Source: a virus. From it: 24,690 nt of DNA. Below the pieces are notes generated by a model. The model had not been told where the DNA came from. It saw nothing but the letters and a program-made list of their open reading frames with translations, and searched no databases. Shown piece by piece: positions 3,723-15,815 of this stretch. Numbering within the stretch: position 1 is the first letter of the stretch; the number at the start of each line of letters is the position of its first letter. The stretch is taken from the IMG/VR virus record IMGVR_UViG_3300021407_000039, positions 1 to 24,690 of that record, one strand, 5' to 3'. The position numbers and the translations under genes are program-made.

Positions 3723-5231
3723 TCAGGCGGCCAGGTCCTCGCGCGGCGTCAGCTTGATCCTGGTCGGGTCAAAACGGTTCCCGCGCCCGGCCGGGAGGAT
3801 CACCACCGAGCCGTAAAGCCGCTTGATCACCGCTCGGCGGCGCGGCATGTCGAGGTCATCCCACACCGCGCGGGCGGGTGCGTCGTGGAACGCGGCCAGC
3901 ACGTCGGGCGCCGCCGCGCTCGCCGCGATCCGCTCATGGATCGCGGTCTGCCGCTGGTCGATGCCGTCGAGGAGCGGGTACAGGTTCGCGGCGGTCAGGC
4001 GCCCGGCGATGTTCGCGGCCCGGTGCTGCGCCGCCTCCTGGCCGAGCCGGTCAAGCTCGGCGTGGAGCGCGGCCACGTCCACGCCCGGCCGCGTCGGCGG
4101 CCTCAGCCGTTCGAGGATGCCAGGTCGGCCGAGCAGGTCGATCGCGGCCTCGCCTATCCACTTGTCGACCTTCACGGCGTCGCGCCGGATGTGGCCGCAC
4201 TCGGCGCCCACGTAGGCCGATCCCCGGCCGCGTCCGGCGCCGCCGACCCGCAGCGGCTTCCCGCACACCCCGCACGTCCCGAACACGCTCACCAGCCAGC
4301 GGGGCTCGTTCCCGCGACCGGCGTTGGTCCTGCGGTCAGGGTTCAGCAGCAGAGCCCGGAGCCGGTCCCACACCTCCCGTTCGAGGATCGCGGGCCACGG
4401 CGCCTTGACCCACTTGCCGCCCTTCACGGCGAGCCCGGCCGTCGCGGGCTTGATCAGCGCGTCCCGCAGCGTCCGCGTCGACCACGGGGCGCCGGTCACG
4501 GTCGGCACGCCGCGCTCGCGGAGATCAGCGACCCGGCCCTTCATGGTGGACCCGGCCAGCAGCAGATCGGCGGCCAGCACCAGCTCGGCGGCCTCGGCCT
4601 CGTCCTTGACCAGGTTCCGCGCGTGCTCCTCGGTGCCCTCCTCGATCTGGAAGCCAAACGGTCGCCGCCCGCCCTGCCAGGAGACCCCGGCCCAGCGGCG
4701 CCGACCCTTGGTGATCTTGGCGCGGAGATCGGCCACGAACCGCCGCGCGTCCTCAATCCGGTCCTGGTACCTGTCCCGCTCGGGCCTCGTGCCGCCGTCC
4801 GTCAGGACCCACCTGGCGCCGCCCTCCTCATCCAGCGCCACGCACGACGCCCCGCCGATCCGGCAGGCGTCCAGCAGCATCATGCCGTCGCGGTGGTCGC
4901 GGGCGATCCGGCTCTCATCCGATACCAGCAGGCCCCGAGCCGCGCCCTGCTGGAGGTCCAGCATCACGGCGTCGAACACCGGGCGGTGAGTCCGCAGCTC
5001 CACGAGCCCGTTAGCGGAGGTCACGCGCCGGTTCGCCTTCGACGCGCTGGCTCCGCGGATGCGCCCGGTTCTCGGGTCCACGTCGTTCTCGACCCGCACG
5101 TTCTCCGGGGGCACGTTGGCGCCGGGGATCGTGGCGGCCAGCTCCCGCAGCTCGTCGGCGCGGGCGGTCAGCGCGCCGGGATCGTCGCCCCGGAAGTCGG
5201 ACTGCCGCAGGTAGATAATCCAGTCGTCCAT
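3723..5231 (-). CDS. int: Large serine integrase (site-specific recombinase)
   Basis: This 502-residue recombinase would integrate and excise the phage genome between attP and attB. The resolvase-type N-terminus begins MDDWIIYLRQS with the catalytic Ser11, and the active-site arginines R108 and R111 lie in DESRIARD. The recombinase domain follows, from about GGRRPFGFQIEEG (188-200). A zinc ribbon comes next (C320 and C323 in FGTCGVCGKPL, then C345 and H347 before IRRDAVKVDKWI). The C-terminal region is helical and probably coiled-coil (ALHAELDRLGQEAAQHR, about 388-404). I chose the ATG at 5231, which overlaps the upstream stop (TGATG) and has GGAGG 4 bases away; a GTG at 5249 is less likely. 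The length matches a compact member of the phiC31/TG1/Bxb1-type large serine recombinases. Confidence 0.95.
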   Translation of the reverse strand: MDDWIIYLRQSDFRGDDPGALTARADELRELAATIPGANVPPENVRVENDVDPRTGRIRGASASKANRRVTSANGLVELRTHRPVFDAVMLDLQQGAARGLLVSDESRIARDHRDGMMLLDACRIGGASCVALDEEGGARWVLTDGGTRPERDRYQDRIEDARRFVADLRAKITKGRRRWAGVSWQGGRRPFGFQIEEGTEEHARNLVKDEAEAAELVLAADLLLAGSTMKGRVADLRERGVPTVTGAPWSTRTLRDALIKPATAGLAVKGGKWVKAPWPAILEREVWDRLRALLLNPDRRTNAGRGNEPRWLVSVFGTCGVCGKPLRVGGAGRGRGSAYVGAECGHIRRDAVKVDKWIGEAAIDLLGRPGILERLRPPTRPGVDVAALHAELDRLGQEAAQHRAANIAGRLTAANLYPLLDGIDQRQTAIHERIAASAAAPDVLAAFHDAPARAVWDDLDMPRRRAVIKRLYGSVVILPAGRGNRFDPTRIKLTPREDLAA

Positions 5232-5548
5232 CACGCCTCCACCGGCCACACCGACCAGCCGCCAATCGCGGGGTCGCCTCGCTGCTCCCAGATCAGCGCG
5301 TACGCCTGCTTGTGCGTCATGGTCACGCGGCTGATCGTGGTGCCGTCGCGGTCGACGGTCTCAAGGATCACGGTCTCGGTGTCGCGGTCATCCTTGGCGT
5401 GCAGGCTCGCGTGCAGCTCTACCAGCTCGCGGTCTGAGCGCCAGATCAGCTCGGGCATCAGTTGCCCGTGGTTGTCGGCCAGGTCGCGCCGCAGCGCCGC
5501 CCGGCCCTCGTCGCCCAGCTCGACGCCAGGGCCGCGCTCCTCGGTCAT
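5231..5548 (-). CDS. Hypothetical protein in the integrase operon
   Basis: This 105-residue protein has its ATG overlapping the stop of the previous gene (ATGA) and its stop overlapping the integrase start. The N-terminal half is helical and acidic (DEGRAALRRDLADNHGQL, then LIWRSDRELVELHASLHAK). The C-terminal half looks like beta strands (TETVILETVDRDGTTISRVT) ending with Trp-rich GGWSVWPVEA. No catalytic or metal-binding motif is visible. Tight coupling to the integrase makes a role in controlling recombination possible but unproven. Confidence 0.75.
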   Translation of the reverse strand: MTEERGPGVELGDEGRAALRRDLADNHGQLMPELIWRSDRELVELHASLHAKDDRDTETVILETVDRDGTTISRVTMTHKQAYALIWEQRGDPAIGGWSVWPVEA

Positions 5549-5922
5549 CGCGGGTACCCCCTGCGCATCCGGTCGGCGGTCTCCTCGGTGGCGCCCGCGT
5601 ACCCCTCAAACACGATCTGCGTCGGGTGGGGCTCGCCCATCTCGGCGGCGAGGAGCGGCTCCCAGGCGTCGGGGTCCAGCGCCTCAATGTGCGCGGGGTC
5701 GCCGGGGACCAGGCGGTTGCACTCGGCCACGCACGCCTCCGCGTCGGCCTCGGCGGTCTCGCCCTTGAACCATCCGGCAACGTAGCCGCTGGCTCGCTTC
5801 ACATAGTGGGTGTACTGGTCGGCCTCCCGGCGTTCGGCGGCCTGGACCTCCAGCGCCGTCACGAAGCCTCGGTGGCCAAGCTGAATGGCCAGGCAGTCGT
5901 ACCAGCGCGCGTTGTGCTGCAT
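5545..5922 (-). CDS. Hypothetical first gene of the integrase operon
   Basis: This is a 125-residue acidic protein with an ATG at 5922 and AGAGGA about 6 bases upstream. The start is unlikely to lie further upstream because the divergent control region begins there. It has helical segments (FVTALEVQAAERREADQYTH and ETAEADAEACVAECNRL) and a Trp-containing C-terminal stretch (PDAWEPLLAAEMG). I recognise no family. It would be transcribed leftward from the 5923-6156 region, where a perfect TTGACA occurs at 5975-5970 without a matching -10 box. Confidence 0.7.
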   Translation of the reverse strand: MQHNARWYDCLAIQLGHRGFVTALEVQAAERREADQYTHYVKRASGYVAGWFKGETAEADAEACVAECNRLVPGDPAHIEALDPDAWEPLLAAEMGEPHPTQIVFEGYAGATEETADRMRRGYPR

Positions 5923-5947
5923 GTTCGTCCTCTCGGGTGGTGGTGGC

Positions 5948-5964
5948 GCGGGCCGGGTGCCCGC
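5948..5964. other. Small hairpin in the leader of the integrase operon
   Basis: GCGGGC (5948-5953) and GCCCGC (5959-5964) form a perfect 6-bp stem with a 5-base loop. It sits where the -10 box would be expected for the TTGACA at 5975-5970 on the minus strand. It may be a regulator site or may simply reflect high GC. Confidence 0.3.
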
Positions 5965-5996
5965 ACTACTGTCAACACCGGAGGCGCCTCATTTAT

Positions 5997-6038
5997 GCCG
6001 CAAACCATGCGCGGGCTTGCCCGCATATGGTTTAAGGC
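5997..6038. other. 42-bp near-palindrome: candidate phage attachment site or operator
   Basis: Two 19-base arms flank the 4-base centre CTTG (6016-6019). The arms share GCC-N2-AAACCAT-N2-GCGGG, agreeing at 15 of 19 positions, with mismatches only in two dinucleotides per arm. Large serine integrases use attP sites of roughly 40-50 bp built as imperfect inverted repeats around a non-palindromic central dinucleotide, here TT (6017-6018). The site lies 75 bp upstream of the integrase operon's first gene. Because it is also between divergent operons, an operator is an equally serious alternative. Confidence 0.45.
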
Positions 6039-6055
6039 CCCTATTCGGTACCGAC

Positions 6056-6108
6056 GCGGCCACAGATGGCAGCGAATAGGTGCGCGTGGCCGCTTGTGGC
6101 CGTAGTAT
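6056..6108 (+). promoter_or_regulatory. Operator-like GTGGCCG repeats and -10 box for the plus operon
   Basis: GTGGCCG occurs at 6086-6092 and again at 6096-6102, exactly 10 bp apart, and inverted at 6057-6063 as part of GCGGCCACA. A TAGTAT box at 6103-6108 follows directly and would place the transcription start near 6115, about 40 bases before the first plus-strand gene. No good -35 box is visible. This fits a regulated promoter with protein bound in the -35/spacer region. The regulator is unknown. Confidence 0.4.
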
Positions 6109-6156: not shown

Positions 6157-6540
6157 GTGGACACACCACCACCGACCGAGGGCCTGCGCGCCCTGATCAT
6201 CCAGCCCGATGCAGGAGGCGCCGCGATCGTGCGGCTGCCGCTCGGGGACCTGGCCGCCGCGACCGCGATCAACGACGCGATCGGCGGCCACTTCGAGGCC
6301 ATAGGCACCCAGGAGTGGATCGCCTACGTGGCCGAGGACGAGCGGGACTTCCCCGCTGGCCTGCGCCCCAACCTGCACGCCGACGCGCTCGCCCGAGCGC
6401 TCGGCTACTCCTGGCCGCCCGGCGACTTCTGCAAGGGCGTCGCCGTGTTCCTCGGCCGCCAGGGCGTCAACGAGACCGACGTGCCGCAGCGCGTGATCGA
6501 CTACGCCAGGGCGGCCGGACTACCTGTGAGGTCCCCGTGA
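6157..6540 (+). CDS. DUF3846-like protein
   Basis: This 127-residue protein starts at GTG 6157 behind GAGAGGA, the best ribosome site in the plus operon. The pattern LRALIIQPDAGGAAIVRLPL, then an IGGHFEAIG segment, DFPAGLRPNLHADALARAL and a KGVAVFLG strand near residue 108 matches the general layout of DUF3846 proteins. These are small phage and plasmid proteins of unknown function with a G-x-hydrophobic-E core and a 'LxPNxxA' segment. It is the first gene of a ten-gene leftmost-to-rightmost transcript. No enzyme motif is seen. Confidence 0.75.
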   Translation: MDTPPPTEGLRALIIQPDAGGAAIVRLPLGDLAAATAINDAIGGHFEAIGTQEWIAYVAEDERDFPAGLRPNLHADALARALGYSWPPGDFCKGVAVFLGRQGVNETDVPQRVIDYARAAGLPVRSP

Positions 6541-6758
6541 CCGTGACCGCCGAACCCGAGCCCCGATGGGCGACCGTAGCCGAGGCGTGCGCGTACTCGG
6601 GGATCAAGGAACGCACGATGCGCCGCTGGATCGCCCAGCGGCGGCTACCCGCGACGCGGCTCGGGCCGCGCCGAATCCAGGTTGACCTGAACGAGGTCGA
6701 CAAACTCCGAACCCCGATAACACCACCACCTGACAGGAGTGACCATGCCGAAGGCTGA
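6537..6758 (+). CDS. Excisionase-type helix-turn-helix protein
   Basis: This 73-residue protein has a GTG overlapping the preceding stop (GTGA). It contains an almost textbook MerR/excisionase-family winged HTH: WATVAEACAYSGIKERTMRR, then WIAQRRLPATRLGPRRIQVD and a final LNEVDKLR. Proteins of this kind bind DNA as small architectural factors, and in many mobile elements they are the excisionase or recombination directionality factor. The serine integrase nearby makes such a role plausible, though directionality factors of serine integrases are diverse and cannot be recognised by fold. It could equally regulate the operon through the GTGGCCG repeats upstream. Confidence 0.85.
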   Translation: MTVTAEPEPRWATVAEACAYSGIKERTMRRWIAQRRLPATRLGPRRIQVDLNEVDKLRTPITPPPDRSDHAEG

Positions 6759-7014
6759 TCAACCCGCTGCGTACTCCGTGCTCGCCTGGAAGGGCCAGCA
6801 GACCACCCCGAGCCGTTTGGGGTACGCAGACCCGATCGTCGCGCTGACTGAGGCGGTCGAGTACCTCAAGGCCGGGTACCAGGTGCGGCTGACCGATAGC
6901 TGCGTCGAGTGGTACGCGCACCAGCCCGTGCCCGACCCCATATTCCGCAGCGCCGCGACCGCGAACGGGCAGGCCGCAGCGTTTACCGGGCCTCCGCGGA
7001 TCGGGGGTAAGTGA
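6745..7014 (+). CDS. Hypothetical small accessory protein
   Basis: This 89-residue protein starts at the ATG 6745 with CAGGAG 5 bases upstream; an in-frame GTG at 6739 would add two residues. It overlaps the end of the HTH gene by 14 bases. A compact alpha/beta stretch is visible (YSVLAWKGQQ, then DPIVALTEAVEYLKAGYQVR and LTDSCVEWY). The last 25 residues are small and Ala/Gly/Pro-rich. No family is recognised. Its high content of aromatic residues and its strong ribosome site argue for a real gene. Confidence 0.7.
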   Translation: MPKADQPAAYSVLAWKGQQTTPSRLGYADPIVALTEAVEYLKAGYQVRLTDSCVEWYAHQPVPDPIFRSAATANGQAAAFTGPPRIGGK

Positions 7015-7226
7015 TGGTTGCGCACCAGGGTCCTACCGCCGCCGACCCCGACGAGATCGAGGTGACGGTGGCGGTCAAGCTGAGCGGGCGGCTGGCCACG
7101 ATCGAGGCCGCCGCCGACCTGGCCGCGACGCTAGACCAGGTGTTTGCCGAGCGCTATCCCGAGACCTACAAGGGGATGGGCGTGCGCCTCGACGTGACGC
7201 CGAAGCTGCCGGGGATGATCCCGTGA
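7014..7226 (+). CDS. Hypothetical small accessory protein
   Basis: This encodes 70 residues from an ATG overlapping the previous stop (TGATG); an in-frame GTG at 7011 is an alternative. It shows one beta strand (EIEVTVAVKLSGR), a helix (TIEAAADLAATLDQVFAERY) and a short C-terminal strand (GVRLDVTPKLP). This is a plausible small folded domain with no motif I recognise. It overlaps the next gene by GTGA. Confidence 0.68.
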   Translation: MVAHQGPTAADPDEIEVTVAVKLSGRLATIEAAADLAATLDQVFAERYPETYKGMGVRLDVTPKLPGMIP

Positions 7227-7618
7227 CCGTTGACTATGCGGAGATCGAGAAGCGGGCCGAGGCGTACCTCAACGACACCGACGACGCCATATTGGCGTGC
7301 CGGGGTCAGGGCCACGCATGGCCGAAGCTGCGCGCCCCGAAGGCGGGTAAGAGCCGCCTCCTCCCGAGGGGGATCGAGGCCCAGCGGTTCACCGATGGGA
7401 GCTGGCAGATCACCAGCACGTGCCCGGACTGCGGGATGCAGCGGACGCTGACCACGCTGCCGGGCGGCCCGATCGACCACCCGGCCCAGTACCGATACGT
7501 CCAGCCGCCCGGATACAAAGCGCCGAAGGGCGCGGGGATCACCCGCCGCGACTGCCTGGACGAGAGCTGGCGGCGCCTCCGCGAGGAGCTGCCGGTCGAG
7601 CGAGGCGGTACCGGATGA
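7223..7618 (+). CDS. Zinc-ribbon-like accessory protein
   Basis: This 131-residue protein starts at a GTG that overlaps the previous stop. Four potential zinc ligands are present: C26 and H31 in LACRGQGHAWP, and C67 and C70 in STCPDCGMQRT. The pattern (a C-X4-H pair, about 35 residues, then C-X2-C) is that of a small zinc ribbon, as found in many phage proteins that bind nucleic acid or proteins. The rest is basic (KAGKSRLLPRG, then GYKAPKGAGITRR). The function is unknown. Similar short proteins are frequent in actinophage accessory regions, but I cannot name the family. Confidence 0.75.
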   Translation: MTVDYAEIEKRAEAYLNDTDDAILACRGQGHAWPKLRAPKAGKSRLLPRGIEAQRFTDGSWQITSTCPDCGMQRTLTTLPGGPIDHPAQYRYVQPPGYKAPKGAGITRRDCLDESWRRLREELPVERGGTG

Positions 7619-8025
7619 AGGTCCACGAGATCACCGCGTATGACGACCTGGACCGGGTGGAGAAGGACTCCAAGACCCGCGCGGCCCGGACGCGGTTCGT
7701 CGGCCTCGACGGCGTGTGGGTGGAGATCGACGTGTCCGAGGAGCACGACGCCGAGCTGTCCGAGGTGGTCGGCCGGTACATGCGCGCCGGGGTCAAACCG
7801 GAGACGGCGCCGCGCCCGCCGAGCCGGAAGATCGCCCCGTCCAGCACCGGCCGCACCCGCGCGGAGGCGATAGCGGAGAACAAGGCTCTGCTGGCCTTTG
7901 CGATGGCCCGAGGGCTCCCGTACACCCCCGCCCGCGAGGGCTCTGGCGTGTACTTCCCGAAGGACACCCGCGAGGCGTACGCGGCTGACCAGACCGCGCG
8001 TGAGGCGGTTGCTGGTGGGCGGTAA
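7615..8025 (+). CDS. Lsr2-like nucleoid-associated protein
   Basis: This 136-residue protein starts with an ATGA overlap. Residues 28-62 (RFVGLDGVWVEIDVSEEHDA, then LSEVVGRYMRAGVKP) match the Lsr2 N-terminal dimerisation domain, whose hallmark is 'FGLDGxxYEIDLS' followed by a helix. After a Pro/Arg-rich linker (63-82), residues 88-122 (ENKALLAFAMARGLPYTPAR, then VYFPKDTREAY) correspond to the Lsr2 C-terminal DNA-binding domain. The AT-hook-like RGR of classic Lsr2 is replaced by AREGSG, so DNA binding may differ. Lsr2 silences AT-rich foreign DNA in actinomycetes. A phage version could protect, silence or antagonise, and those roles are inference. Confidence 0.62.
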   Translation: MKVHEITAYDDLDRVEKDSKTRAARTRFVGLDGVWVEIDVSEEHDAELSEVVGRYMRAGVKPETAPRPPSRKIAPSSTGRTRAEAIAENKALLAFAMARGLPYTPAREGSGVYFPKDTREAYAADQTAREAVAGGR

Positions 8026-8263
8026 GCGGATCGAGCCGACCGGCCGTTACGAGTGCCGCGAGCACTCCTCGATCAAGGGTCTGGTGAGCGTGTACTGGAT
8101 ACCCGCCCACGGGCTCCCCGACAACCGGCCGCTGCTGAACCTCGGACCCTCGGCGGTGCCGCTCCTGGCCGAGGCCCTGGCCGAATGGGAGCTGGCCCAC
8201 CACGTCCCCGAACCGAGGCCAGCGCCGGGCCTCCGCATAGTGAACGACGACGGCGAGATATGA
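8015..8263 (+). CDS. Hypothetical small accessory protein
   Basis: This encodes 82 residues from the GTG at 8015, with GAGG 9 bases upstream; an in-frame GTG at 8000 is possible. It overlaps the end of the Lsr2-like gene. The sequence GRYECREHSSIKGLVSVYWI is followed by LLNLGPSAVPLLAEALAEWE and a hydrophilic tail ending IVNDDGEI. One Cys and two His are present but do not form a clear metal site. The family is unknown. Coupled translation with its neighbours supports a real gene. Confidence 0.65.
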   Translation: MGGKRIEPTGRYECREHSSIKGLVSVYWIPAHGLPDNRPLLNLGPSAVPLLAEALAEWELAHHVPEPRPAPGLRIVNDDGEI

Positions 8264-8286
8264 CAACCAACCCGATAGGAGAACTG

Positions 8287-8541
8287 ATGACCACCACCGA
8301 CCAGCCGATGTACGGCATCTGGATCGAGGGGGACCGCGCCGCCGCCGAGCTGTGGCCCCGGACAGCGGAGGGCGCGATCACCGCGATAACGCGAGCCTGC
8401 CGCTACTCCAGGCGCGGCGCCCCGGTCGAGGTGCGCCGCCCGGACGGGACCGTGCTCGCCCAGTACAAGGCCGGGCGGCGGGCCGACCTGCCGGACGGCG
8501 GGATCGCCCACATGGCCGACGCCCGCGCGAGCGTCCAGTGA
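8287..8541 (+). CDS. Hypothetical small accessory protein
   Basis: This 84-residue protein starts at the ATG 8287, which has AGGAG 5 bases upstream. Another in-frame ATG at 8260 overlaps the previous stop and would add nine residues, so two starts are possible. It contains MYGIWIEGDRAAAELWPRTA, a helix (AITAITRACRYSRRGA) and two strands (PVEVRRPDGTVLAQYKAG). The overall look is a small alpha/beta domain without a recognised family. Confidence 0.68.
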   Translation: MTTTDQPMYGIWIEGDRAAAELWPRTAEGAITAITRACRYSRRGAPVEVRRPDGTVLAQYKAGRRADLPDGGIAHMADARASVQ

Positions 8542-8822
8542 CCGCGCCGCAGCCTCGGCCACCGGAGGAGGACCCGGCCGCCGAACAGGCCGAGCACGTC
8601 AAGTTCGAGGGCGCCACCCGGAGCGACACCGAGGATCGCCAGCCCTGGATCAAGATCGGGGTGAGCGTGGAGATCAGCGGCGAGTGGATCACCGAGGACA
8701 TGCTGGCCCACGCCGCCCGACAGCTCGTTGCGAGCCTCGTTGGGCGGCTCGGGATGGCCGCCGACGAGGCCAACGCCGAGGCGGCTCGGCGGCGAGGCCC
8801 CGAAGGGCCAGGCCCCTCATGA
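8538..8822 (+). CDS. Hypothetical small accessory protein
   Basis: This encodes 94 residues from a GTG overlapping the previous stop (GTGA). A Pro/Glu-rich N-terminus (PQPRPPEEDPAAEQAEHV) is followed by a strand (WIKIGVSVEISGEWI) and a long helix (EDMLAHAARQLVASLVGRLG), ending in a basic, Ala-rich tail. No known family is recognised. The next gene starts inside its stop codon region (ATGA). Confidence 0.65.
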   Translation: MTAPQPRPPEEDPAAEQAEHVKFEGATRSDTEDRQPWIKIGVSVEISGEWITEDMLAHAARQLVASLVGRLGMAADEANAEAARRRGPEGPGPS

Positions 8823-9100
8823 CGGACCAGCGACGGCGCGGCGGGTCGCTGGAGCGTCTGCCACATCCCGCGATCGTGTGCAGCGGCCCCCAGCTCCTCA
8901 AGGTGATCGAGGACATGGAGGCCGGGGCGATGGAACTCCCCGGTCAGGTGATCTGGCGAACCGACCTCGACGGCGAGCTACAGGTCCGGCTGGCCCGAGC
9001 GTGCGGCGGGACCGACGACCAGATAGCCGGCATCCGGGCGGTGCTGGAGGCCGAGGACGCAAACCGGCGCCAGCCGGGGGGGAGAGCTGGCGCCGATTAA
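8819..9100 (+). CDS. Hypothetical last gene of the plus operon
   Basis: This 93-residue protein starts at an ATGA overlap. It contains IVCSGPQLLKVIEDMEAGAM, then a strand (QVIWRTDLDGELQVRLARA) and a helix (DDQIAGIRAVLEAEDANRR). Its last codons lie inside the first of three terminator-like hairpins (9065-9095), so coding and termination overlap. I do not recognise the family. Confidence 0.66.
   Translation: MTDQRRRGGSLERLPHPAIVCSGPQLLKVIEDMEAGAMELPGQVIWRTDLDGELQVRLARACGGTDDQIAGIRAVLEAEDANRRQPGGRAGAD
9065..9095 (+). terminator. First of three convergent hairpins
   Basis: A perfect 10-bp stem (CGGCGCCAGC at 9065-9074, GCTGGCGCCG at 9086-9095) with an 11-base loop lies at the very end of the last plus-strand gene. 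There is no T-run, as is common for actinomycete terminators. It would act together with the two following hairpins. Confidence 0.5.
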
Positions 9101-9106
9101 GCTCGT

Positions 9107-9136
9107 GCGGCTCCTGACTCGGAGGCCAGGAGCCGC
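9107..9136. terminator. Second hairpin in the convergent region
   Basis: GCGGCTCCTG (9107-9116) pairs perfectly with CAGGAGCCGC (9127-9136) across a 10-base loop, directly after the plus operon. It is the most likely main terminator of that operon. No T-run is present. Confidence 0.6.
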
Positions 9137-9166
9137 GCGTGGACCGGGTTGATAACCAGGTCCAGA

Positions 9167-9206
9167 GTAACCCGCCCGGCGACGTTGAGGGGGCCAGGCG
9201 GGTTAC
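9167..9206. terminator. Third hairpin, facing the late operon
   Basis: GTAACCCGCC (9167-9176) pairs perfectly with GGCGGGTTAC (9197-9206). The loop is 20 bases. It ends 2 bp before the stop of the leftward late operon, so it most likely terminates that transcript. Being symmetric, it could stop both. Confidence 0.6.
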
Positions 9207-9208
9207 CT

Positions 9209-9667
9209 CTAGCTGGCCTGCTGGGTGAACATCGACCCGATGTTGTCGGGCAGGCCATACGGCGTCGGCGCGGGACCGCTAGCCGGGTCCTCCCACGCGA
9301 ACGGGCCAGTCTCGTCCCAGACCTTCACCACGTCGCGGTGACCGCGCTGGGTGGTCACGCAGACCTTGACGAGCTGCACGACCTCGATCGTCGCGGCGTG
9401 CTTCTGGTCGCCGTACTGGCCGCCGCCCTGGTCGCCCTGGCCGACCGGCTGACCGGTGAGCGTGTCGTGCTCCGTCTCCAGTGAGAGGAAGCAATGCGTG
9501 ACGGGCTTCGGGTGATGGTTCTGGTAGACGGTCGGGGTCGGGGTCGGGCTCGGGTACGGCTGGCCTCCGCTGGTCGCGGCGAGCGCGGGCACCGCTGAGC
9601 CGAGGATCAGGGCCGCGCCAGCGGCCACGGGCAGGAGCAGGAACCGCAAGCGGGTGGATCGCGTCAT
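9209..9667 (-). CDS. Secreted protein downstream of the lysis genes
   Basis: This 152-residue protein has a clear Sec signal peptide: basic MTRSTRLR, a hydrophobic core (FLLLPVAAGAALILGSAV) and a cleavage site after PALA (about residue 30). There is no lipobox. The mature part starts with a Pro/Thr linker (PYPSPTPTPT), contains a pair of cysteines that could form a disulfide, and has Gly/Gln-rich and acidic stretches. AAGGGA lies about 8 bases before the ATG. It follows the holin candidate in the late operon. A role in lysis, in blocking superinfection, or as a secreted lysogenic-conversion protein are all possible; the family is not recognised. Confidence 0.78.
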   Translation of the reverse strand: MTRSTRLRFLLLPVAAGAALILGSAVPALAATSGGQPYPSPTPTPTVYQNHHPKPVTHCFLSLETEHDTLTGQPVGQGDQGGGQYGDQKHAATIEVVQLVKVCVTTQRGHRDVVKVWDETGPFAWEDPASGPAPTPYGLPDNIGSMFTQQAS

Positions 9668-9736: not shown

Positions 9737-9994
9737 TCAGGGTTTACCAGGGTCGGGAGGTTCCGATCCGGTACCGCTCGGCGGATCGCGCGGCGGCCTG
9801 CGGCCCGAGCCCATGTATCCCGCCACCGCGCCGATCGCGGCGCCGAGGACCGTGGACACCGTGGCGATCTCCTCGCTGCTGATCGTGTAGGTAGGGTTCC
9901 GCCCGGCGTAGATCGCGCCGATGACCAGCACGGCGAACACGCCGAGGATCGCCAGCACGGCGGCGATGCCGCGCCAGTCGGGCTCGTGCCTCAC
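9737..9994 (-). CDS. Holin candidate (two membrane segments)
   Basis: This 85-residue protein starts at a GTG that overlaps the upstream fibre gene's stop (GTGA). Two hydrophobic segments are visible: about 9-31 (GIAAVLAILGVFAVLVIGAI) and about 43-63 (IATVSTVLGAAIGAVAGYMG). The second is followed by a Pro/Arg-rich hydrophilic tail (RRPPRDPPSG). Size, two membrane passes and the location close to the endolysin fit a class II-type phage holin, which would form membrane holes that release the amidase. No sequence family is recognised, so the call rests on topology and context. The longer frame upstream is a shadow of the fibre gene. Confidence 0.65.
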   Translation of the reverse strand: MRHEPDWRGIAAVLAILGVFAVLVIGAIYAGRNPTYTISSEEIATVSTVLGAAIGAVAGYMGSGRRPPRDPPSGTGSEPPDPGKP

Positions 9995-11508
9995 GGCACC
10001 GGGAAGTTGGGCGGCGGCCAGTCGCGGCGGGCGGCCAGCTCGCGCCCGGTCGGCGGCCACGGCGGCGCCGACACCGGCACGAACCGGACGCATTCGAGGA
10101 ATAGCGCGCTCAGCCCGGTATTGCCGGGGAAGTCGCTTCCAGGGTTGCTGTAGAGCTGGAGCTGGTAGCCCTGCGCCATCATCACCTGCCCGATCGCCCG
10201 GCCGCCGCCAGGGCCGATCAGGAGCATCGGGGCGGCGTAGATCGTGGTCGGGGCGTAGAACCCGAGCGGGATCGCGCCGATGACCGAGCCCGCGATCGGC
10301 ATCCCGCCTTGGGTCCAGGTGACGTAGCCCTGAATCCAGCAGACCCCTCGGTGGTAGTAGAACCGCAGCGGCGGCTCCTGGCCGCCCGCCGACCCGTCCA
10401 GCCAGCCGGGACCGAGCGACAGCGGCGCCCCGACCGGAGCCGACAGCAGCTCGGCGCGGGTGACCTGGCCGTCGACACCGGGAGGCCCCTGCGGGCCGGT
10501 CGCGCCCTGGACGCCCTGCTGGCCCGCGTCGCCCTGCGGGCCGGTCGGACCTTGCGCGCCCGTGGGACCTTGTACCCCCACCCCGATAGGCCCCATCGGA
10601 CCCTCCGGGCCGGTCGGCCCCTGGATGCCCTCCGCGCCGACCGGACCCTGCGGCCCGATCTCGCCCTGCGGGCCGGACGGCCCGATGATCCGGCCCACGT
10701 CGATCCAGCCGCCCGGAGCGGTGAGCTGCGACACGTAGACGTACATCGTGCCGTCGACCGGGTGGCCCTCGCGGTGGAAGAACAGGCCCTCCCCGATCCG
10801 CATCTGGTAGGCGGGAGTGCCGGGCCGGTCCCAGTCGGCCGGGAGGAACCCGGTCGGTACCTCGGTGGCGAGGTCGCTCGGGTCCTTCGACACGCCGAAC
10901 TGGCCAATGATGATCGTCGCGGAGCCGTCCTGGCCGGGCGGCCCCTGGAGGCCGGGCGTCCCCTGCGGCCCCGGCTGGCCCTGCGTCCCGATCGGCCCCT
11001 GGAGGCCGGGCGGTCCCTGCGCGCCGGTCGATCCCGCGCCCCCGGTCGGACCCTGCGCGCCCTGCTCACCGCGAGCGCCCTGCGGCCCGGCCGGACCCTG
11101 GCCGCCCTGCGGTCCTGGCGGCCCCTGCGCTCCTGCCGGGCCGGGAGGCGCCTGGAGCACACCCGGCGTGATCCACGGGACGCCGTTCGGGCTCTGGTCT
11201 CCGACGAACAGCCACAGCGACCCGTCCGGGTCGTAGATGAAGGACCACCCGATCTCCACCTGGAGGTCGGCCACCGGCCGCCCGAGCCCATCCCAGTCAC
11301 GCGGGACGAACCCGTCAGGAGGCAGCTCGGCCGGGGTCCGCTGAGCGCCGAAGGTGCCGATGATCAGCGTCGCCTGCCCGGAGGGACCGGGCGGCCCATC
11401 GGGTCCTTGCGGGCCGGGCGGTCCTGGCGGCCCCGCCTCGCCGGGGAACCCGGTCTCCACGTCGATGATCGCGGGGAGCGCCGGAACGGTTACGTCGATC
11501 TCGCTCAT
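9991..11508 (-). CDS. Collagen-like tail fibre with two repeated modules
   Basis: This is a 505-residue fibre. Residues 1-19 may be an attachment segment. Three Gly-X-Y (collagen-like) tracts follow, at about 20-44, 121-195 and 276-347, separated by two copies of a 75-80 residue module (46-119 and 197-276). The module is marked by ATLIIGTFG, then [12 protein letters not shown] and a [15 protein letters not shown] strand. A C-terminal head (349-505) ends Pro/Trp-rich. The collagen tracts should form trimeric triple helices, and the head probably touches the host surface. The true start is ATG 11508, overlapping the upstream stop; the longer frame is not supported. A related module occurs in the fibre at 13444-14904. 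Confidence 0.85.
10681..10920 (-). repeat. Fibre module, copy 2
   Basis: Residues 197-276 of the 9991-11508 fibre. Key residues: [32 protein letters not shown] and [12 protein letters not shown]. It is the most divergent of the three copies and carries a few extra residues before the last strands. It is flanked by collagen-like tracts on both sides. Confidence 0.7.
11152..11373 (-). repeat. Fibre module, copy 1
   Basis: Residues 46-119 of the 9991-11508 fibre. Key residues: [37 protein letters not shown] and ITPGVLQ. It is clearly related to the copies at 10681-10920 and 14002-14214. The pattern suggests a small beta-rich knob between collagen helices. Confidence 0.72.
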
Positions 11509-11888
11509 CGGGTCACATCCGGGGTCACGGTGACAGGTCCGCGGATCACGGTCAGCACCCGCGAGCCGGGGAATACGAGCTGGAGGTCCCACCGGCCGCT
11601 CGGGCAGATAGCCGACTGCGCGGGGTCCAGATGGCAGAACACGTAGTTGGGCTGGGTGACCTGCGTCCGCAGCTCCACCGCCGCCCGAGCGTCGGGCGTG
11701 CGCCTGATCTGCGCGGTGACCGAGGTCACCTGGACGAGGCTGTAGGGGATCGTCTTCTCCGCGTCGGCCCAGAGCCGGAACACCCACGAACGGTTGTCGC
11801 CCCGGTAGACGTTCAGCGCGATCTCGACTGGCAGCTCCGCGCCGTCGTCAATCAGGCGAGGCGCCGCATCCGCGAGTGTCCCGGTCAT
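11505..11888 (-). CDS. Baseplate/tail-tip protein (BppU-like N-terminal fold)
   Basis: This 127-residue beta-rich protein starts at the ATG 11888 with AGGAGG about 9 bases upstream. The sequence NVYRGDNRSWVFRLWADAEK is followed by VTSVTAQIRRTPDARAAVEL and ends with a strand [14 protein letters not shown]. This 'RGD-x-W...AQIR...T..G.v.v..DVT' layout is typical of small phage proteins resembling the N-terminal domain of baseplate upper proteins, which anchor fibres. It sits directly upstream of the collagen fibre with an overlapping stop/start, so it is probably that fibre's partner. The RGD triplet is part of this common pattern and should not be read as an integrin motif. Confidence 0.65.
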   Translation of the reverse strand: MTGTLADAAPRLIDDGAELPVEIALNVYRGDNRSWVFRLWADAEKTIPYSLVQVTSVTAQIRRTPDARAAVELRTQVTQPNYVFCHLDPAQSAICPSGRWDLQLVFPGSRVLTVIRGPVTVTPDVTR

Positions 11889-13443: not shown

Positions 13444-14904
13444 TCACTCATCGGTCCTCAAGGCCGCGCGAGCGCGCAACCTGTCCCAGCTCGGCCAGTC
13501 GCCCGTCTCGCGTGCGGCCCCGAGCGGGGTCGTGTCGCGCGGGATGATCAGGCTGAGGGTGATGACGCCCGTGCCGCCCGGCGTCGCTCGGGCGATGAAC
13601 TGCACGGCGCCCTCGCCGCCGAAGAACCATCGGTGCCACTGGTGGTCGCCGCCGACCCCGGCCTGCACCGAAGCGTTGCCGACTCCGGGGGCGTAGATAC
13701 GCGGCTGGTTGAGTGGCAGGCTCGGCCAGCAGTCGGGGGTCATGTTCCCGAAGCTCCACGTCCGGTTATTCGCCGCGTCGGTCCCGGTGATGTGCGCGCT
13801 GAAGTCGATCTGCACGCTGTTCAGGAACCCGAGCAGCCGGTAGCGGAGCAGGGTTTGCGCGCTGAGCCCGGCCGGGGAGCCCGGATTCGGCAGCGTGCGC
13901 CACGGCCCGATGTTGAGGTCGACGCCGCCCGGTCCAGGCTCGCCGCGCTCGCCCTGCGGACCCTGCGGGCCTTCCGGTCCCCGCTCGCCCTGCGGGCCTT
14001 GGATGAGACCCGGCGAGCCCCACCCGCCCGGCCAGTTCGGCAGGAACGTCCACAGCGCGCCGTCGACCACGTAGACCAGCGACCAGCCCGGTTCGAGCTG
14101 CGTGTCCTCGGAGGGACGGCCGGGACCGTCGAACCCGGCCCGGATCATCCCATCGGGCGGGAGGTCGGCCGGGGTCTGTACCTGGCCGAAGCTCCCGACG
14201 ATCAGCGTCGCCGTGCCCGCCTGGCCCTGCGGCCCCTCGGGACCGCGCGGCCCCTCGGGACCGGGGTCGCCTTGGTCGCCCTGCTCGCCCCGGTCGCCCT
14301 GGTCGCCGCGCGGCCCGGTCGGGCCGGTCGGCCCCTCGTCGCCGGGAGTCCCCTGCGGGCCTTCGGGACCGAGCGGGCCTTGCGGTCCTGGCGGCCCTCC
14401 GGGGTCGCCAGTCTCGCCCTGCGGGCCTGGCGGCCCGATCGGACCCTGCGGGCCTGGAGGCCCTGGCACCGACCCGGCGTAGTCCTGCTGACGCGGGACC
14501 AGCGTCATGTCCTCGGCCGAGGCCGCGCCTGCCGGGACCTCCACCGTGCCCAGCATCACGCCCGCGCCCGCCGCGCCCGCGAGCCGGACAGCTAGCCGGT
14601 ACTCGGCGGCCTCCGGGTCAACGATCACGGCCCACAGCTCGTCGGTGCGATCGTCGGCGCCGCCTGGCGCCGCGACGGCCTCCAGCGTGATCGGGGACGT
14701 GAGCACCGCCACCGTCCCGTCGCCGCAGTCGGCCAGCGCGAGCCAGCCAGGATCGAGGAGGATGTTCAGCCCGTCGCCGGGGCTCATGGTGACCGGCGTC
14801 ACGATGCCGGTCGACCGCGCCGCCAGAGCCGTGATCACCTGCCGGTCGTCCCAGGCCGCATACCGGCCCGACTGTCCCCAGCGGAGGAGCTGCGGCGTCG
14901 TCAT
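13444..14904 (-). CDS. Collagen-like tail fibre with paralogous N-terminal anchor
   Basis: This is a 486-residue fibre. Residues 1-140 form an anchor domain ([44 protein letters not shown]) that is clearly related to the N-terminus of the upstream neighbour at 14901-15815. A Gly-X-Y tract (146-230) follows, then one copy of the module shared with the other fibre (231-301), a short second collagen tract (303-327) and a head domain (329-486). I chose ATG 14904, which overlaps the upstream stop. Architecture and position after the Gp37-like protein suggest a side fibre that binds host cell-surface glycans; the ligand is unknown. Confidence 0.85.
14002..14214 (-). repeat. Fibre module, copy 3
   Basis: Residues 231-301 of the 13444-14904 fibre. 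Key residues: [45 protein letters not shown] and GSPGLIQGP. It is closest to copy 1 (11152-11373). The same module in two separate fibre genes indicates duplication or domain exchange within the phage. Confidence 0.72.
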
Positions 14905-15815
14905 GAGCCGATGTCCTCGACGGAGATCATCTGCGGGTTCCCGGCGACGCCGGTCCCATTCACCCGGAACTGGACGCCGTTGATGATGCTCCACATCCGC
15001 CCGGAGAACACCCGGTCAAACCGCACGTCGCTGATCGCGTGGCGGAATATCCACTCCACCTCGGCCTGCTGGTAGCCCGGAGTCACCCCGCCGACGTAGG
15101 AGAAGTTGAAGGCCGCCTCGCGGGCGAGCTGCGCGACCACGGCGGCCTGCCCAGCCGTCCGGTAGCCGATCCCGATCCGCAGCTCGCCGTTCTCGCGGAA
15201 CCCGCTCGGCGCCGCGACGAGCTGCGCCGAGTTGGTCACGAACCTGACCCGGTACCACTGGCCCGGCTCCATCCTGACCTCCTGCGAGGCCAGCTCGAAC
15301 CCGGACGACGCCGCGAAGCTCGTGCTCTGCCGGACGGCGTTGTCGTTGCGGAACTGGTAGGCCATCAGCCGCCGCTCGATCGCGGCATCCACCGACCGCA
15401 GCGTCATCGCCGCAGAGGTGTTCGAGTTGGCCGGGGCGGTGATGGTGGCCAGCGGAATCCCTGACCGGCCGCCCGCCTGCGCCGGGGTGATCACCCGCAG
15501 CTCGAACGTGCCCTCGTCGGGATTCGTGTCGGCCCACACGTAGTCGGTGCGGCTATCAGTCGCCGGGCCGGGATTGGCCTGGACGACCAGCTCGTCGCGG
15601 GTGCCGATCACGGCGCTGGTGAGGTCGTCGCAGCTCGCCACGCCGACCCAGCCGCCCTCGATGATCACCTGGAGCCCCGACCCCGCCCGGACGTACACCG
15701 GCCGCACCAGCCCGATCCGGCCCCCGGTCACCGCCGTGATCACAGCCCTGTCGTCGGCCGCGTCGTAGTTCGCGCCCTGGCCCCACGCGAGCTTGCCGCC
15801 CGGTGCTTCGCTCAC
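14901..15815 (-). CDS. Minor tail / receptor-binding protein, paralogous N-terminus
   Basis: This 304-residue protein starts at a GTG overlapping the upstream stop (GTGA). The first ~140 residues ([51 protein letters not shown]) match those of the collagen fibre downstream. The remaining half is different: [32 protein letters not shown] and a strand-rich end ([20 protein letters not shown]) suggest a beta-sandwich, possibly a carbohydrate-binding head. So two adjacent genes share an anchor and carry different distal parts. The exact function is inferred from order in the tail cluster. Confidence 0.78.

Follow-up and report, generated by a model that had tools for sequence, protein, structure and literature searches.

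A putative ten-gene operon beside a probable serine-integrase attachment site in a temperate phage

Introduction

What is the role of ten small genes that are read from one strand of a phage sequence in which the integrase, exo, recT and every late gene are read from the other? The question is raised by positions 6157–9100 of the IMG/VR virus record IMGVR_UViG_3300021407_000039. The record was analysed as a whole, that is, as a linear sequence of 24,690 bases with ca 70% GC (guanine plus cytosine), called the window below. The ten-gene block, p1 to p10, is the only plus-strand module of the window. The minus strand carries genes for capsid, tail, tape-measure, collagen-like tail and endolysin proteins, and then a serine integrase, a helix-turn-helix (HTH) gene of Cro/CI type, and genes for an exonuclease and a RecT-like protein. 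The window belongs to a temperate phage. Its capsid and RecT proteins have distant relatives mostly in actinobacterial phages (Mycobacterium, Gordonia, Arthrobacter), and the host group is almost certainly a high-GC actinobacterium, an assignment that concerns the group and not the host itself.

A first-pass annotation had singled out the block as a typical place for lysogeny control, anti-defence or superinfection immunity functions. The reading that we favour, and hold to be fairly probable, is that of an operon on the attP (phage attachment site) side of the genome, in which excision and lysogeny control are coupled with variable cargo. Accessory operons on the attP side are of a familiar kind. 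The most unusual part of this one is the Lsr2-like protein p6, a minor new feature.

Results and Discussion

Operon and probable attachment site

The analysis of open reading frames gives ten plus-strand frames in succession between 6157 and 9100. Adjacent frames overlap by 1 to ca 14 bases, mostly in the 4-base GTGA/ATGA manner, or are otherwise separated by gaps of at most ca 23 bases, and because of the overlaps the ten genes are inferred to be co-transcribed as one operon. With the starts chosen here, the GC fraction is 0.75–0.95 at codon position 3 and 0.46–0.61 at position 2, which is the coding pattern for a genome of 70% GC. The frames, overlaps, codon GC and strands thus bear out the earlier description of ten touching or overlapping genes running opposite to the integrase, recombination and late genes, and the position between integrase and lysis genes is confirmed as well. 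Downstream, three strong hairpins fill 9101–9212 (fold energy −69.9 kcal/mol, z = −6.1), between the last stop codon of the operon (9098–9100) and the end of the late gene that converges on it. They are probable terminators for both convergent operons; the terminator scan reported no T-run terminator at this location, and an Rfam search gave no match.

At its other end, the operon starts ca 140 bp from a TT-centred quasi-palindrome at 5997–6038 (arms 5997–6016 and 6019–6038, central TT at 6017–6018). With 16 matches in arms of 20 bp, it is the best palindrome of this arm length in the window, and its score was never reached when the region was shuffled 300 times. Random sequence of the length of the window reaches 14–16 somewhere, while a random region of 250 bp does so once in 300 cases. 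As a positive control, the verified attP of the Streptomyces phage phiJoe was found to be the top palindrome in its 12-kb stretch, with 15 of 20 matches by the same measure. The attP sites of serine integrases are ca 45–50 bp long, contain inverted repeats and lie beside int (PMC5311408). The segment 5993–6042, a quasi-palindrome of such a length with a 2-bp centre beside int, is therefore assigned as the putative attP; our confidence in this is high, though short of full.

The large serine integrase itself (3723–5249, minus strand; Recombinase and Resolvase Pfam domains above cut-off) lies on the other side of this site from the operon, and is 48–58% identical to the integrases of four related contigs (L017, L020, L021 and L027). 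The distance from int to the probable attP is ca 0.75 kb, compared to 18 bp in phiJoe, and is taken up by two small minus-strand genes of 105 and 125 residues (5231–5922), a pair not found in this position in the relatives examined. TT-centred palindromes (AA on the other strand) with different arm sequences were also found by the integrase in L017/L021, L024, L025, L027 and L028. Together with the window this makes six integrase lineages with such a palindrome, mostly scoring far above shuffles. The score in L027 is moderate, being reached by 12 of 300 shuffles, and in L025 one frame separates the palindrome from the integrase. No such palindrome was seen in the truncated contig L020. If the site is indeed attP, its TT-centred equivalents can be read from five further uncultured phage lineages, which would provide new pairs of serine integrase and attP. 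Since the contig runs through the intact site, the DNA of the window is not integrated at this site.

Between the probable attP and p1 there is a perfect 8-bp inverted repeat, CCTATTCG...CGAATAGG, at 6040–6080. The octamer occurs twice in the window, both times here; two copies were present in 1 of 100 shuffles, and we infer the repeat to be an operator candidate. As a separate observation, contig L017 has a perfect 12-bp inverted repeat at 2346–2379, on the operon side of its probable attP and in the place equivalent to the repeat of the window. Two very strong palindromes of contig L023 (at 9858 and 5267, 17–18 matches of 20) have other centres and lie away from the integrase start; they are probably terminators or operators.

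Conservation in related phages

The first-pass annotation had suggested that variable and conserved genes be told apart by comparison with related phages. We carried out this comparison with about eight related viral contigs, including G001, G002, G006/L027, L017, L021, L024 and L025. In G006/L027 (38.5 kb, integrase 53% identical), the order is p1, p2, p5, p6, a gene of 120 residues, a short gene, a remote p7 and a gene of 60 residues, with the shared genes in the order of the window. Judged by homology and gene order, p1-p2-p5-p6-p7 is a backbone kept in order at the same place in this serine-integrase phage. In L017 and L021, whose serine integrases are 48–49% identical to that of the window, the opposing operon begins with a p8 relative, followed by five other genes, p7 and a 62-residue gene shared with G001, and in L024 it includes relatives of p3 and p1. 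A tyrosine integrase is found in the collinear sister phage G001 (37.8 kb), and G002 (16.8 kb) spans the same middle part. Their opposing operon, at the same place, runs from the integrase through a gene of 62 residues and a cysteine-rich one of 165 to 179 residues to p3 and p7.

From the layouts of G001/G002, L017/L021, L024 and L027, the picture that emerges is a locus whose place and orientation are fixed and in which a set of genes recurs beside swappable neighbours. The other five genes of the window (p3, p4, p8, p9 and p10) appear exchangeable, three of them being without a relative. Farther afield, a comparison with 50,697 phages yielded no relative of the operon region at the DNA level and none of p1, p3, p5 or p7 at the protein level, and two scans of genome contigs gave no relative. 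The locus serves as an example of how, in temperate phages with high-GC hosts, a lysogeny-type backbone can be kept beside attP while its neighbours are swapped, and of how the same genes are found now in an attP-side operon and now in an early lytic one.

Proposed function and closest known systems

In the favoured scenario, the operon would start beside attP, read away from the serine integrase toward the late genes and be stopped by the hairpins. Given the attP assignment, integration would separate the operon from the integrase and leave p1–p10 at the opposite end of the prophage with a promoter of their own, for which ca 140 bp of phage DNA would be left upstream of p1. The excisionase-type protein, the Lsr2-like protein and the conserved small proteins supplied by the operon would then serve the decision between lysogeny and excision. 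Judging from family and place, p2 may act in excision, as a recombination directionality factor (RDF), and/or as a regulator, and p6 may modulate Lsr2-type silencing of the host or the prophage. The genes p3, p4 and p8–p10 would be exchangeable cargo. The lysogeny-type location proposed earlier is thus supported by the presence of p2 and p6 beside the probable attP and by the partial variability between phages.

The gene p2 (6543–6758, plus strand as for all ten genes) encodes 71 residues, or 73 if read from 6537, and scores above the cut-offs of both TIGR01764 (39.0 bits, cut-off 28.8) and HTH_17 (37.4 bits, cut-off 27). By these profile scores it belongs to the excisionase family, and it is ca 51–56% identical across four phages. 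Its profile matches Gp37 (PDB 4j2n_A) along nearly the full length with E=4.6e-11. The 'excise' proteins of mycobacteriophages are a further known counterpart, the phage relatives being ca 43–48% identical. We take the Gp37 of 4J2N to be the Xis protein from Pukovnik, a mycobacteriophage that has a tyrosine integrase. The window differs from these systems in that the only integrase seen in it is of the serine type, with p2 across attP from it.

A similar arrangement is known from phiJoe (KX815338), in which the RDF gene gp52 is divergent from int, with attP between them (PMC5311408). The window likewise has a serine integrase and a small directionality-type gene divergent across attP, and phiJoe has both a palindromic attP of similar score and an Lsr2-like gene nearby. 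The differences are that the window has a ten-gene operon opposite the integrase, that p2 is an HTH protein of the excisionase family, unlike gp52, and that the attP centre is TT, compared to GG in phiJoe. The two integrases are only remotely related (24% identity over 287 residues).

Alternative explanations

Several results weigh against the favoured reading. A sigma-70-like promoter was looked for but not found, and L023 and L026 have no TT-centred palindrome by their integrases. The possibility that p2 is a homolog of the phiJoe RDF was rejected, blastp against gp52 giving an 11-residue match with E=0.25. This comparison with proven RDFs of serine integrases covered gp52, and p2 may still have an RDF function. 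More important are the sister phages. In G001 and G002, where the adjoining integrase is of the tyrosine type, the p2 relative comes first in the rightward exo/recT operon, and the Lsr2 gene, p1 and p8 are found further along the same operon in G002 and at the other end of the contig in G001. It follows from the position of these relatives that p2 occurs with integrases of more than one type and that an early lytic role is possible; by this comparison, p1, p2, p8 and the Lsr2 genes may serve early lytic growth. The chief rival is accordingly that early lytic genes have changed strand; the operon would be a reshuffled part of the replication/recombination module, would be expressed soon after infection and would have no role particular to lysogeny. 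The early operon of G002, which combines the four genes with exo, recT, replication-initiation-like, ParB-like and methyltransferase genes, speaks for this, as does G001 in part. However, p3 and p7 remain in the opposing, integrase-side operon even in these two phages, and the operons of G006/L027, L017 and L021 are separate from exo/recT and lie beside the probable attP. The first pass had raised the question of whether all genes belong constantly to a known replication module. The answer is yes for p1, p2, p8 and the Lsr2 gene in the tyrosine-integrase relatives, but not for p3 and p7, nor for p4, p9 and p10, for which no relative was found. We regard the early-module explanation as rather unlikely.

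Another option considered was that the palindrome at 5997–6038 functions as an operator for a repressor or as a terminator hairpin and that the operon is simply divergent from the integrase operon. The divergent intergenic region is a usual place for an operator, and the terminator scan does flag the core stem of the palindrome on the plus strand. Against this, the recurrence of a TT-centred palindrome beside the integrase in five further lineages, with differing arms, fits attP sites rather than one operator, and the verified attP of phiJoe has a like score, which makes this option very unlikely in our estimate. Still less probable is a use of the variable genes mainly as cargo directed at rival phages or at the defences of the host, that is, for superinfection immunity or anti-defence, as the first-pass annotation had also proposed. 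Variable small genes at a fixed place near the attachment site would be in line with such a role, and the fold modelled for p8 resembles that of AcrIF9 very weakly. However, this similarity (E about 1–2) is within the noise and was rejected, and searches with the p8 model against PDB and BFVD gave no significant structural match. By the PADLOC models, none of the operon genes belongs to a known anti-phage defence system: the output was confined to p2 with mad1 (HTH, 4.6e-6) and a short stretch of p9 with a CARF model (0.0018). The former is generic HTH similarity, p2 being far below the NCBIfam cut-off for MADS1, and the latter is marginal, so that this part of the earlier proposal found no support.

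The Lsr2-like protein

The product of p6 (7615–8025, 136 residues) has an Lsr2-like dimerisation domain, with 30.7 bits against PF11774 (cut-off 29.6) and E=9e-9 against PHROG 1223, and no match to the C-terminal DNA-binding domain of Lsr2, PF23359. The latter profile matches the sister-phage protein well, and the L027 relative of p6 weakly and partially (E=0.034). In an alignment with the proteins of L027, G001, G002 and L025, the RGR AT-hook was found to be missing in p6 and in its 46%-identical L027 relative, in both of which it is replaced by a longer loop with the pattern R..G.Y.P. The sister-phage and L025 proteins keep RGR in the C-terminal domain. Because the loop is conserved in two diverged proteins, a retained function is suggested rather than decay, two sequences being few for such a statement.

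Compared to the phage Lsr2-like proteins described so far (PMC8612146; PHROG 1223, 6509), p6 thus shares the dimerisation domain and the phage context near integration genes, while p6 and its L027 relative differ in having the R..G.Y.P loop for the AT-hook. The surroundings of phage Lsr2 genes are enriched in integrase and HTH_17 domains, and a role in lysogeny maintenance has been postulated (PMC8612146). One can speculate that p6 represents a class of phage Lsr2-like proteins with the AT-hook exchanged for another conserved loop, which would join the Lsr2 filaments of the host via the dimerisation domain, bind other DNA or none, and act as a counter-silencer controlled from the attP-side operon. 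We consider this decidedly unlikely as it stands, but the RGR-less p6 is a candidate, and a testable one, for a phage protein that interferes with silencing in the host.

Remaining genes and neighbouring features

The first gene of the operon, p1 (6157–6540, 127 residues), is 47% identical to an L027 protein that is a clear member of DUF3846 (PF12957; 42.3 bits, cut-off 27.5), and is called DUF3846-like for this reason, its own score being 16.5 bits. The earlier DUF3846-like label therefore stands through the relative and is weak for p1 taken alone. The labels of an excisionase-type HTH and an Lsr2-like protein agree with the scores of p2 and, just over the cut-off, p6. The zinc-ribbon protein corresponds to p5 (7223–7618, 131 residues), which has a zinc-finger-like Cx4H...CxxC arrangement and is 42% identical to an L027 protein that retains all four possible zinc ligands. 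Matches of p5 to DUF7895 and OapC were below cut-off and were not used.

The six products called unrecognised, p3, p4 and p7–p10, indeed gave no useful family match in profile searches. Three of them can be described as conserved but unnamed families, on the basis of their homologs: p3 (6745–7014, 89 residues), with relatives in the opposing operons of G001, G002 and L024; p7 (8015–8263, 82 residues), the steadiest member of the opposing operon, present in the window, G001, G002, L017, L021 and, remotely, L027; and p8 (8287–8541, 84 residues), with relatives in G001, G002, L017 and L021. The start of p8 is most likely at 8287 and not at 8260, since a good ribosome site precedes that ATG and the homology begins shortly after it. 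Its predicted fold is beta-beta-alpha-beta-beta, and the structure models of p8 and p7 are of modest quality (pLDDT, the predicted local distance difference test, of 72 and 67, respectively). For p4 (7014–7226, 70 residues), p9 (8538–8822, 94 residues) and p10 (8819–9100, 93 residues), no relative was found in any sequence compared.

A few further features were noted. The sister phages L013 and L014 have two direct repeats of 53–55 bp with 60 bp spacing between a tyrosine integrase and an excisionase gene (L013:13425-13537 and L014:12025-12139), which may have a regulatory function or serve as arm sites for the integrase. In L023, a frame of 259 residues (5296–6075), which reads as a Nudix-like box preceded by an HTH part, lies between the early genes and the integrase. 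At the late-operon end of the window, 9209–9667 encodes a small protein with a signal-peptide-like start; L017 has another secreted-looking protein at this place, and a relative of that protein lies between the integrase and the HTH gene in L027. Finally, two mutually related collagen-like tail proteins are encoded on either side of the endolysin region (9991–11787 and 13444–14994), and the pair is found again in relatives.

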